Assembly (NCBI GenBank): GCA_903827245.1
Contig: CAIKHO010000046.1
Coordinates: forward strand, 1-35,596
Origin: an uncultured Opitutia bacterium
GTDB taxonomy: Bacteria > Verrucomicrobiota > Verrucomicrobiia > Opitutales > Opitutaceae
Reading direction: 5' to 3'
Length of the DNA stretch: 35,596 nt
In this document: positions 29,901 to 35,596 of the stretch, piece after piece
Numbering within the stretch: the first letter of the stretch is position 1
How the letters are laid out: the number at the start of each line of letters is the position of its first letter
Position numbers and translations under genes: made by a program
Notes under the pieces: model-generated
Told to the model about the DNA's origin: nothing
Database searches by the model: none
Seen by the model: only the letters and a program-made list of their open reading frames with translations

Positions 29901-29980
29901 CCGTATCGATGCAATCGAAGTGTCACGATCGGCGCAGCAGCCGAGGCAACGGGGCTGGGCTTGATGACTCACCTCAAACC
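29901..29980 (-). repeat. Palindromic dispersed element, truncated copy at the PQQ dehydrogenase start
   Basis: The reverse complement aligns with 14161-14240 at roughly 78% over 80 bases by hand count. It holds the right arm, the apex (GGTTTGAGGTGAGTCATCAA) and distal flank, but the left arm is missing. Where the left arm should follow, the PQQ dehydrogenase signal-peptide codons begin. The first ATG of that gene (29909) lies inside this element. Confidence 0.75.
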
Positions 29981-32116
29981 TTTTTCGTTCTGGTGGTGGT
30001 GGCCTGGATGCTGGCGATGCCTTGCGAGTTTGCCCGCGCGCAGCCATCGGAGTCGCGCGACTGGCCGGTCTGGAACGGCAATGCGAACGGCGACCATTAT
30101 TCACCACTCGCGCAAATCGATCGTGAGAGCGTGACCAAGCTGCGGGTCGCATGGACGTTCGACACGGGCGAGGAGGGCGGGCTGGAAACCAACCCGCTCG
30201 TCATTGCCGGCGTGGTTTATGCCAACACGCCCAGTCGGAAGGTGGTCGCGCTCGACGCGGTCACGGGCCGGCTGCTCTGGAAATTCGATTCAGGCGTCCC
30301 CGGCGTGGGACCGGTGCGATCCGTGGCGTACTGGACGGACGGCCGCCAGCACCTGATTTTCGCGAGCGTAAACAATTTCCTTTACGCCCTCGATGCGGCC
30401 GACGGAAAACCCGTCCAGCAATTTGGCGAAGGCGGCCGGATCGATCTGCGCAAGGACCTGGGTCGCGACTACCGGCAGCAATCGATCACGATGACCAGCC
30501 CGGGCGTCATCTACAAGGACCTCATCATTGTCGGTGGCCGCGAGCCGGAAGATCATCCCGCGCCCCCGGGCGACATCCGGGCCTACGACGTCCGCACGGG
30601 GGCGCTGCGCTGGATCTTCCACACGATCCCGCATCCCGGCGAATTCGGCTATGACACCTGGCCGAAGGATGCATGGGTCAACGCCGGCTCGGCCAACAAT
30701 TGGGCGGGCATGGTCCTCGATCCCGACCGCGGTATCGTTTACGTGCCGACCGGCTCGGCGGTGGCCGACTGGTATGGCGGGGACCGCGCCGGCGACGACC
30801 TGTTTTCCGACACCTTGCTGGCCCTGGACGCGGCGACCGGAAAACGTCTCTGGCATTTTCAGGGAGTGCACCACGACCTGTGGGATCTCGATTTTCCCGC
30901 GCCGCCCGTTCTGCTTACCGTCAACAGCGGTGGCCGGCGGGTCGACGCGGTCGCGCAGACAACCAAGTCGGGCTATGTATTCCTCTTCGACCGGGTGACC
31001 GGCCAGCCCCTTTTTCCCATCAAGGAATCGAGTTATCCCGCGAGCACGGTGCCGGGCGAGGTGGCGTCACCGACCCAGCCGCTGCCGACGCTGCCGCTGC
31101 CTTTCACGCGACAAGGCGTAACCGAGGATATTTTGACCACCCGGACACCCGAGGCCCATGCGTGGGCGGTGCAGAAGTTCAGGACATTGGCCGGCGGGGG
31201 CGGAGGACAATTCGCGCCTCCGCGCCTGGACAAGCTACTGGCCGCACTCCCGGGCTCCAATGGCGGGGGAGAGTGGGGCGGCCCGGCGGTCGATCCCACC
31301 AGTGGGATCCTGTATGTGAACGCCAATGAAACCCCGCGTCTCATCGGGCTCGTCCTTCCGCGGGCGCCCGTCAGTGCCGGTGAGCGCATCTATCAACAAC
31401 GGTGCAGCGCCTGTCACGGTCTCACCGGCGCCGGGGCTCCGCCGGATATCCCCGGCTTGGTGCCGGTCAATCCCCTGCTCACCGATCAGAAGATAGAAGA
31501 CCTCATTCATCAGGGGAAGGGCCGCATGCCTCCGGTGACCGACATGAATGGGGACCAACTCAAGTCCCTGGTCCGCTATCTGAAGATTTTGCCGGCGCAG
31601 GGTAGCGCGACGGCCAGCGTGCAAAAGGCTGCGGCGCCGGCCGACGCCGACGATGACGGGGCCGGCTCGGGCGAGGGCTCGCGCTATAAATCGTCGAAGG
31701 GGTTTTTCGCCGATCCCGAGGGATATCCGGCCATCGTGCCGCCCTGGGGCACGCTCAGCGCGATCGACATGAATACGGGGAAATATCTGTGGAAGATTCC
31801 CCTGGGCTATTATCCGGAGCTGGCCGCGAAAGGCCTGGCCGACACCGGGACCCTGAATTACGGCGGACCATTGGTGACCGGCGGCGGTCTCGTGCTGATT
31901 GCCGCCACGGCCTACGATCGGAAATTCCGGGCCTTCGACAGCCAGACCGGACAGCGGCTCTGGGAAACCGACCTGCCGCTCCCCGGCCTGGCGACACCGG
32001 CCACCTACATGGTGAACGGGAAGCAGTACGTTCTCATCGCGACGGGCGGTGAGGGCGGTGGCAGCCAGTTCCGGGGCAGCACCGGCGGGGTTTATGTGGC
32101 CTTCGCGTTGCCCTGA
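29909..32116 (+). CDS. Exported PQQ-dependent dehydrogenase with inserted cytochrome c domain
   Basis: From the ATG at 29909 the product has 735 residues. GTG codons from 29993 are plausible alternatives, since residues 1-24 are repeat-derived. The hydrophobic core FFVLVVVAWMLAMPCEFARA is a signal peptide. The quinoprotein beta-propeller begins WPVWNGNANGDHYSPLAQID and shows tryptophan-docking phrases (VTGRLLWKFDSGVPG, GYVFLFDRVTGQPLFPI, GKYLWKIPLGYYPELAAKG). Near the last blades, a cytochrome c module is inserted (RCSACHGLTGAGAPPDIPGL, Cys499, Cys502, His503) with a distal KGRMPPVTDMNG Met ligand. It should oxidise an alcohol or sugar in the periplasm and pass electrons to its own haem. It follows PL22 closely, which hints at pectin-derived substrates. 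Confidence 0.88.
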   Translation: MQSKCHDRRSSRGNGAGLDDSPQTFFVLVVVAWMLAMPCEFARAQPSESRDWPVWNGNANGDHYSPLAQIDRESVTKLRVAWTFDTGEEGGLETNPLVIAGVVYANTPSRKVVALDAVTGRLLWKFDSGVPGVGPVRSVAYWTDGRQHLIFASVNNFLYALDAADGKPVQQFGEGGRIDLRKDLGRDYRQQSITMTSPGVIYKDLIIVGGREPEDHPAPPGDIRAYDVRTGALRWIFHTIPHPGEFGYDTWPKDAWVNAGSANNWAGMVLDPDRGIVYVPTGSAVADWYGGDRAGDDLFSDTLLALDAATGKRLWHFQGVHHDLWDLDFPAPPVLLTVNSGGRRVDAVAQTTKSGYVFLFDRVTGQPLFPIKESSYPASTVPGEVASPTQPLPTLPLPFTRQGVTEDILTTRTPEAHAWAVQKFRTLAGGGGGQFAPPRLDKLLAALPGSNGGGEWGGPAVDPTSGILYVNANETPRLIGLVLPRAPVSAGERIYQQRCSACHGLTGAGAPPDIPGLVPVNPLLTDQKIEDLIHQGKGRMPPVTDMNGDQLKSLVRYLKILPAQGSATASVQKAAAPADADDDGAGSGEGSRYKSSKGFFADPEGYPAIVPPWGTLSAIDMNTGKYLWKIPLGYYPELAAKGLADTGTLNYGGPLVTGGGLVLIAATAYDRKFRAFDSQTGQRLWETDLPLPGLATPATYMVNGKQYVLIATGGEGGGSQFRGSTGGVYVAFALP

Positions 32117-34009: not shown

Positions 34010-35596
34010 ATGAAAGTTACGACAGGACTCGTCCTTGTTGCGCTCGGATTGCCGTACCAGGCGATGGCACAGCCGTCCGCTCTTCGATCGGATCCACCTC
34101 GAGTTCTCGAGCAGGGCGCGATCAAGACCACTGGGGTTGATGGGAAATTTCAAATTGAAGGCGGTGCCCCGGCCATCGCTGCTGGCAAATCGGGCGGCGC
34201 CAATGCCGTCAGCGCTCCGCGCCTGCCAATCCTGTTCATTGTTGGAGACTCGAGTGCTGCCAATTTTGAAGACTGGGGCGTTGGATGGGGCAACCTGCTG
34301 CCAACCTACTTCGATCCTTCCCGGATCCACGTGGAAAATGCCGCGGAGCCCGGCGCCAGCAGTCGAACGTATCTGGGCCAGGGTCATTGGGACAAAGTCC
34401 TGAAGCAACTGAGCCCCGGGGACTTTGTCGTCATTCAATTCAGCGAGAACGAAGCTCAATCGGCGGATTCGCCCGGAACGTCGGGTACCTTGCCGGGCAC
34501 CGGTGAAACCATCGCCGAACTGGCCGGTCCCGATGGCAGGATGGAGCTCGTCCATACTTACGGATGGTACCTGCAAACCTACATCCGCGATGCCGTGGCC
34601 AAGGGAGCCCATCCGATCCTAATGACGGGATGCGTCCGGAACCTCTGGAGCGAGCCGGTCAACCTCAATCACACGGGCCGCTACATCGATGTTCCCGCTC
34701 TCGATAGTGGTTCTTGTTACGAGACCCTGAGGCTTGTCGCTACGAAACAGCATGTGCCGGTCATCGACTTGAACCGCCTGTCTTACATGACCTTTGCGAT
34801 TCTGGGGAAGGAGGAGATCGGAAAAATGTTTACGAAGGACGAAGGGCATACGAACCGATATGGAGCCGATTTGAACGCCTACCTGATGATCTCGGCGATG
34901 AAAGGATTGGGTGACAGTCCCTTGTTGGCGTTCTTATCGCCGAAGGGCCGGATCGTGATCTCATCGGCGGCAAGCGTCGATTATGAGGCGAAGGAGGTCA
35001 TCGGTCGCAGCGCGTGGACCGTTTTTGTTACCGAATCGATCTACAAGTATTCGACTCGACCCATTGAACCGCGGGATGCGCGGTTGCCCTGCCTGTGGGT
35101 AGTGGGCGATCGCGCCGCGGGATCGGGTCGCGGCATTGGGGCGGGCGGACAGTGGGGTTGGGGCGATTTGCTGACGGAATATTTGCAAGGAAAGTCGATC
35201 GGCCTGGTCGTCCAGGGCGGCGGGGAGGCTAGTACCCGCAATTTTATCAATCATAACGCCTGGGGCCGGATCGCGGAGCGGATCCTGCCCGGTGACTTTG
35301 TCCTGATCCAGTTTGGCCACCTTGATTCGGACGACGCTACCGATGGCAAGACCGGCCGCGGCACGCTGCCCGGCATTTCCGGCGACGTGATTGAGGTCCC
35401 GGCAACAATTGAAGGCACGGAGATGCGGAAACTGTGGGACAAGCGGAATTTTAAAAACGGGCGCGAATCGGTGCACACCTATGGGGCTTATCTGAAAATG
35501 TATATCGCGGACGTCAGGAAGAACCGGGGCCTCCCGATTCTCCTGTCACCCACGCCACGCAACGTTTGGAAGGACGGCAAGATCGTGCGGGACCAG
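34010..35596 (+). CDS. Tandem SGNH-domain protein, partial (C-terminus beyond window)
   Basis: The frame from ATG 34010 stays open for 529 codons to the window edge. The product has a signal peptide (MKVTTGLVLVALGLPYQAMA). The first SGNH domain (about 73-300) has VGDSSAANFEDWGVGWGNLL with Ser81, QFSENEAQ in the GxND block (Gly replaced by Ser, Asn147 kept) and DEGHTNRYGA with Asp277 and His280. A second SGNH domain (about 360 onward) repeats the same layout: VVGDRAAGSGRGIGAG has Arg368 where the catalytic Ser should be, and QFGHLDSDD has Leu438 where the oxyanion Asn should be. The CE12-like character (DWGVGWGNLL; HTYG..L..YI) suggests rhamnogalacturonan or a related polymer as ligand. The second domain is probably non-catalytic, perhaps binding. 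Confidence 0.8.
   Translation, partial: MKVTTGLVLVALGLPYQAMAQPSALRSDPPRVLEQGAIKTTGVDGKFQIEGGAPAIAAGKSGGANAVSAPRLPILFIVGDSSAANFEDWGVGWGNLLPTYFDPSRIHVENAAEPGASSRTYLGQGHWDKVLKQLSPGDFVVIQFSENEAQSADSPGTSGTLPGTGETIAELAGPDGRMELVHTYGWYLQTYIRDAVAKGAHPILMTGCVRNLWSEPVNLNHTGRYIDVPALDSGSCYETLRLVATKQHVPVIDLNRLSYMTFAILGKEEIGKMFTKDEGHTNRYGADLNAYLMISAMKGLGDSPLLAFLSPKGRIVISSAASVDYEAKEVIGRSAWTVFVTESIYKYSTRPIEPRDARLPCLWVVGDRAAGSGRGIGAGGQWGWGDLLTEYLQGKSIGLVVQGGGEASTRNFINHNAWGRIAERILPGDFVLIQFGHLDSDDATDGKTGRGTLPGISGDVIEVPATIEGTEMRKLWDKRNFKNGRESVHTYGAYLKMYIADVRKNRGLPILLSPTPRNVWKDGKIVRDQ

Follow-up and report, generated by a model that had tools for sequence, protein, structure and literature searches.

The gene at the end of the window (the whole stretch of DNA analysed here, 35,596 nucleotides, which represents the entire contig C46) raises the question of whether a single exported protein combines two SGNH domains of which the second has lost its catalytic residues, and what such a protein might do. 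The open reading frame (34010–35596, + strand) encodes 529 aa within the window and is open at the contig end. The final 141 bases of C46 (35456–35596) are identical to the opening 141 bases of contig C47, and the full 141-base stretch is present at only two places in the assembly (G000; 3.55 Mb, 91 contigs, 97% complete), i.e., the end of C46 and the start of C47, as expected for an assembly-graph overlap. Reading on through this overlap yields a joined frame of 606 aa with a stop codon at C47:373–375. The joined protein is probably secreted; a putative Sec signal peptide, identified by eye from the sequence, covers residues 1–20 (MKVTTGLVLVALGLPYQAMA; 34010–34069, + strand). Domain 1 (residues 67–320; 34208–34969, + strand) was assigned to the CE12-type SGNH proteins by HMM, residue alignment, and a match to the rhamnogalacturonan acetylesterase structure 1DEO; it is followed by an interdomain linker (residues 321–353; 34970–35068, + strand) with a pLDDT <50 at residues 321–349. 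Domain 2, delimited by HMM, alignment, and the contig join, has residues 354–529 in the window (35069–35596, + strand) and its remainder (residues 530–606) in the joined frame on C47 (L009:142–372).

Both halves were matched by a single HMM built here (domain 1, E = 7.3e-80; domain 2, E = 1.4e-76), although the seed contained the window's own domains and their kin and these E values are thus not independent. Matches to public families were modest, with Pfam Lipase_GDSL presenting an E of 6.1e-6 for the entire ORF and of 0.17 with the second half alone, and with NCBIfam PaeY matched in both halves far under its cut-off; the PDB sequence of 1DEO was matched across domain 1 (3.4e-14). Structure models were obtained for the window protein (mean pLDDT 75.1; without the final 77 residues of the 606-aa protein) and for the orthologous pair of the congener G002 (mean pLDDT 79.8). 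The best Foldseek match was 3C1U, a mutant of the rhamnogalacturonan acetylesterase, for the window model (E = 3.5e-15) and 1DEO for the G002 pair (E = 4.9e-17); domain 1 of the latter superposed on 1DEO over 228 residues (VIA Z = 29.0, rmsd 2.1), and domain 2 (about residues 317–557) presented Z scores of about 15 to 18 against SGNH enzymes. Because most of the relatives in the underlying alignments (40 companion rows) are intact, the models indicate that the fold fits and do not represent proof. Taken with the sequence, which continues as an SGNH domain past the contig end, they place domain 2 in the CE12-type SGNH fold and sequence family, as the sequence-only reading had proposed. The predicted fold is held in common with the CE12 rhamnogalacturonan acetylesterase of Aspergillus aculeatus (1DEO, 3C1U) and with YxiM (2O14); compared with these proteins, domain 2 lacks Ser, Gly, Asn, and His, and block III of domain 1 is altered.

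All four SGNH letters of domain 2 are replaced (S368R, G406E, N438L, and H575A), as established by alignment and codon reading. The substitutions of the catalytic Ser by Arg368 (CGC; 35111–35113, + strand) and of the oxyanion-hole Asn by Leu438 (CTT; 35321–35323, + strand) had already been recognized from the window sequence alone and were confirmed; the loss of the block II oxyanion-hole Gly (Glu406, GAG; 35225–35227, + strand) had not been described in that reading. The expected Asp-His block of domain 2 could be read on C47 as FADPDFATNYAGAR, where an intact relative has FADPHTHTSRAGAE; the block is thus present, but its His position holds Ala575 (GCC). Turning an Asn codon into CTT, or a His codon into GCC, takes no fewer than two base changes, so single sequencing errors cannot yield the full set. 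A sequencing error at the Arg codon was accordingly rejected, given the loss of all four letters, these two multi-base replacements included, and the absence of Ser from the G002 ortholog as well.

Relatives were gathered from the window's genus, its family, and elsewhere (with record titles naming Verrucomicrobiota, Acidobacteria, Gemmatimonadetes, Bacteroidota, and gammaproteobacteria), resulting in 180 aligned domain rows, 176 of them distinct and many closely related. The Ser column contained 175 S, three gaps, one R, and one E, and the His column 176 H, two gaps, one A, and one V; in both columns the replacements are those of the window and G002 domain 2s alone. Gly was found in 178 rows (one gap) and Asn in 177, and all non-gap exceptions at the S, G, N, and H positions are from the window or G002 domain 2, save one T at the Asn position. 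This sole other Asn-loss row among the 180 is domain 2 of L056:1393–3087 (G092), which presents GTTD for GHND with Ser and His intact. Ser was kept in all 49 other second domains compared, the G002 ortholog being the exception. Two further searches revealed no additional pseudo-domain relatives among the best-matching loci, which were the ones read: one covered an order sample (3 of 372 genomes matched at E ≤ 1e-45, own genome included) and the other a class sample (21 of 384 genomes at E ≤ 1e-42, own genome included). Five of the 47 domain rows from these searches are those of the window and G002, and 41 of the 42 others show S, G, N, and H, the remaining one being cut off. Because these are sampled genomes, with G002 in neither listing and so probably undrawn, and because reading covered the best matches only, the absence of more pseudo-domains represents weak evidence.

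Tandem CE12-like proteins are common among the relatives; 58 ORF records contained two matches of >120 profile positions each, a number that includes copies of one gene and seven records that are the window's or G002's own. The window genome itself encodes an intact tandem on contig C82 (SDST/GHND/DRTH in the first half and GDST/GHND/DEHTH in the second half). The earlier impression that the architecture is undescribed therefore does not hold, and Clo1313_0693 of Clostridium thermocellum likewise combines two CE12 modules, together with a CBM35 and a dockerin, in one protein (PMC4711584). Clo1313_0693, likened here by description and not by sequence, differs from the window protein in that the account in PMC4711584 mentions no catalytic loss. 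Judged by these sequences, the window pair goes back to a tandem in which both domains were active, consistent with the proposal that domain 2 is a pseudo-esterase derived from a duplicated catalytic domain, here the second of the two domains in the ancestral tandem. Larger arrangements were also observed. Three proteins, L050 and L054 (G190, G194) and L132 (G289), contain a CE12 tandem and an ESGE-type third domain, with S, G, N, and H throughout, and in L041:1381–4446 a CE12 tandem is followed by about 480 aa resembling a glycoside hydrolase, presumably of the GH35 type.

Three genomes of the window's genus were examined, including G002 (72% complete, 740 contigs), which contains the nearest relative of the window pair (44.8% identity in domain 1 and 47.6% in domain 2, as compared to no more than 42.8% between the window domains and any intact domain at the same position). 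In a quick tree, in which long branches make placement unsure, the domain 1s paired with each other (SH-aLRT 99), as did the domain 2s (SH-aLRT 100), with either pair falling on its proper side of the split between first and second domains. In domain 2 of G002, the Ser position is taken by Glu, the Asn position by Tyr, and the His position by Val, with Gly retained at its own, so the catalytic loss is shared, but Arg368 and Leu438 are not conserved. These letters also bear on whether domain 2 might have gained a new activity at its old site through the new Arg and Glu; the charged Arg368 and Glu406 do occupy two catalytic positions, but no new reactive set is common to the two orthologs, and we regard this explanation as highly improbable. 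Among 57 columns conserved at ≥90% in 49 intact second domains, nine are lost in both orthologs. The four catalytic blocks hold seven of these nine columns versus 16 of the 48 others (Fisher p = 0.017, with block limits drawn after the losses had been seen), and S, N, and H are all within the nine (chance 0.003). Two members of the degenerate pair were found, and a single loss of domain 2 catalysis, in a common ancestor of the window species and G002, is the most likely history.

The pair evolves rapidly; the window and G002 copies share 45–48% identity, versus 66% for LigA between the same two genomes. The intact C82 tandem, by comparison, is 81–84% identical in G000 and G001, and constraint on the degenerate pair may thus have been relaxed. 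An intact tandem in G002 (L018) shares 54–56% identity with the C82 tandem and is probably not its ortholog. This fast divergence, together with losses in domain 1 as well, would be compatible with decay, in which domain 2, and perhaps the entire gene, is turning into a pseudogene without function. However, the frames are open across 606 and 1077 codons in the window and G002, respectively, domain 2 is no less conserved than domain 1 between the two copies (p = 0.59), 36 family-conserved domain 2 columns (51 reference rows) are retained in both, and the G002 copy adjoins a regulator gene; decay thus appears improbable to us.

Retained residues of domain 2 include W384, R450, Y494, R517, and W520, which are present in 100% of intact second domains, and R410, W418, and R527, which are present in 93–97%; all eight are found in both the window and G002 domain 2s. 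The cleft of CE12 enzymes is lined by Arg residues that, according to a review, may hold uronate carboxylates (PMC9487903). The picture of a kept cleft in domain 2 is partial, because R448 is lost from both orthologs and R371, R402, R496, and W534 are each changed in one of them. The best reading of these sequences is that domain 2 is a pseudo-esterase, in which the fold and a number of basic and aromatic residues invariant in the family appear to be preserved, while the residues for SGNH chemistry are gone; a binding or regulatory role would fit this pattern.

Domain 1 retains Ser81 (TCG; 34250–34252, + strand) at the nucleophile position, Gly115, Asn147, and the Asp277-x-x-His280 block (34838–34849, + strand), as indicated by sequence and alignment. 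Its block III reads QFSENE instead of QFGHND (F-S-E-N-E for F-G-H-N-D at 34439–34453, + strand), so the GxND form is absent, in agreement with the sequence-only reading. Domain 1 is altered further than that reading had noted. The counterpart of GHND is SENE in the window domain 1 and NENE in that of G002, and a Glu at the block III His position was found in only two of the 180 domain rows, both from the window/G002 clade. S, G, N, and H of domain 1 are retained in both orthologs and Asp in the window protein only. R158, which is invariant among intact first domains with a letter there and aligns with R450 of domain 2, is Ser or Ala in the window and G002 domain 1s, and 14 of 62 conserved domain 1 columns are lost in both (a loop Arg at column 227 was left out, as its position is alignment-dependent). 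With these 14 losses and a G002 domain 1 without Asp, domain 1 may also be dead; a catalytic centre in changed surroundings is a plausible description of the window copy. The two domains thus seem partly complementary, with domain 1 keeping the catalytic letters and losing an invariant Arg, and domain 2 showing the reverse. A purely structural role, in which domain 2 merely props up or dimerises domain 1 as the working esterase, would agree with the five catalytic residues kept in the window domain 1; the changes to block III and R158, the missing Asp in G002, and the existence of single-domain relatives with the same catalytic letters argue against it, and we consider it unlikely.

In G002, the pair makes up the C-terminal half of a 1077-aa frame that is still open where the contig ends; the N-terminal part of this frame is a BlaR1-type M56 domain (PF05569, E = 1.4e-58) with HELAH as its HExxH motif at residue 256. 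A BlaI-family gene (L114:3229–3636, − strand; PF03965, E = 1.7e-34) is located directly upstream on the same strand. Upstream of this blaI gene we found the palindrome GACTACAcaTGTAGTC (+ strand of L114), which was given by none of 200 shuffles and which we take to resemble a BlaI-type operator. Pfam matches up to E = 1 in the G002 fusion included no penicillin-binding family, the outer part being the SGNH pair. Contig L114 also carries VanZ and ligA, which are found in the same order in G001 (L174), with LigA 80% identical; the G002 contig therefore shows no obvious sign of a binning error. The 13 kb around VanZ-ligA in G001 contained no match to the G002 blaI or M56-SGNH fusion gene.

The window protein has no Pfam match to M56, and G000 and G001 presented no M56 match at E ≤ 1e-5 and no match to the G002 BlaI at E ≤ 0.001; neither the window nor the opening 12 kb of C47 contained a BlaI operator-like site. 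The window copy would therefore act as a free secreted protein, and the sensor reading is not directly transferable to the window species. One explanation for this difference is that the BlaR1-like fusion is ancestral and that the window lineage lost M56 and BlaI, the outer part persisting as a secreted leftover or decoy binder. The fused form in G002, with its blaI gene and palindrome, the unusual residues that fused and free forms share in both domains, and the lack of M56 and BlaI matches in G000 are all consistent with such a loss. On the other hand, the direction of change cannot be polarised from two sequences, the syntenic G001 site, with no match to either gene, fits a local gain equally well, and the window copy itself starts with a probable signal peptide; we therefore rate an orphaned sensor as rather unlikely, if still the strongest of the competing explanations.

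In the wider family, M56 was matched in 61 of 200 genomes. None of 29 other M56 loci read, a subset of these matches, contained another M56-SGNH fusion, and re-reading seven of them at greater length (five that had been truncated and two others) gave the same result. A BlaI-like ORF was found alongside M56 in all seven of these 29 loci that are nearest to that of G002. These seven pairs are L176–L182 (G024, G012, G103, G020, G021, G183, and G220), with frames of up to 1700 aa. Outer domains could be named in four of the seven, i.e., FGE-sulfatase with HEAT repeats, NHL repeats, CarboxypepD_reg with redoxin, and PD40 repeats; in the other three, Pfam names nothing but the peptidase. Such exchangeable outer parts fit a function in sensing, and pairs of this type possibly represent a broad class of BlaR1-like sensors for non-beta-lactam signals. 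A precedent for another signal is PetR/PetP, a BlaI/BlaR1-type pair that, according to a commentary, acts in the copper-dependent plastocyanin swap in cyanobacteria (PMC7896320).

Overall, we consider it probable that the window gene encodes a secreted tandem CE12-type SGNH protein with a pseudo-esterase as domain 2, most likely for carbohydrate recognition, and that the G002 pair represents a BlaR1-type sensor. This reading builds on the sequence, the residue losses, the close kinship of both domains, the fusion, and the BlaI neighbour; from these we infer that the protein is exported and binds a ligand, which ligand this is, that signalling follows, and what the unfused protein does in the window species. 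Domain 2 would bind but not hydrolyse a glycan, the simplest candidates being acetylated pectin and rhamnogalacturonan; the setting in the window is pectin- and rhamnose-related, with a GH106 rhamnosidase, two single GDSL proteins, and an oligogalacturonate-lyase-like protein. In the window species, domain 2 would serve to keep the secreted protein attached to its substrate, and in G002, glycan binding to the outer pair would activate the M56 protease, and the activated protease would cleave BlaI, resulting in derepression.

Other genes in and near the window include a PQQ-type dehydrogenase (29909–32116) whose polypeptide also contains a cytochrome c domain; PF01011 matches the protein in two stretches, and PF13442 (residues 487–558) apparently lies between two propeller parts. 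Two PF00756 esterases, alike by eye, flank the tandem gene, one in the window from 32744 (− strand), just upstream, and one at L009:4267–5352 (− strand), about 4 kb downstream.

To our knowledge, catalytically dead SGNH domains have been little described in bacteria, and a literature search of limited scope (titles and abstract openings) retrieved no paper on an M56-SGNH fusion and none on a dead CE12 domain. The OSK domain, which belongs to animal Oskar, is catalytically dead. It is treated as an RNA-binding SGNH family in a review (PMC9487903) and thus resembles the proposed domain 2 in using an SGNH fold for binding, with RNA as a different ligand. CtCE2, a carbohydrate esterase whose active site is reported to bind cellulose as well (PMC2661963), resembles it in having an esterase site that serves carbohydrate binding and differs in retaining its Ser-His dyad and activity. 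Reuse of an enzyme-derived outer domain to sense plant polysaccharides, as proposed here, has a parallel in RsgI6 of C. thermocellum, an anti-sigma factor with a GH10 outer domain described as having very low activity and still binding its carbohydrates (PMC4711584); that system uses an anti-sigma factor and a glycosidase fold, unlike the M56/BlaI and SGNH combination found here. BlaR1/MecR1 with BlaI/MecI (PMC7593790) resemble the G002 system in combining an M56 protease and a BlaI-type repressor with an outer sensor derived from an enzyme; their outer part is a class D beta-lactamase-like domain and that of G002 an SGNH pair, and the window protein is without M56.

For BlaR1, the signal is the acyl-Ser formed with a beta-lactam. 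By analogy, a worn-out pectin-acetylesterase tandem could have become a BlaR1/BlaI-type sensor in which domain 2 grips polyuronate and the Ser of domain 1, with oxyanion hole and His kept and GHND changed to (S/N)ENE, takes up an acetyl group and releases it slowly, the acetyl-Ser being the signal; the window species would then have this device as a free secreted protein. We view this more specific version as doubtful.

Inside one genus, the degenerate secreted tandem can be compared with an intact tandem of its own genome and with a degenerate tandem fused to M56, so the step from enzyme to sensor is testable there. More generally, the BlaI/M56 pairs of this bacterial family suggest sensing beyond beta-lactams via exchangeable outer domains.
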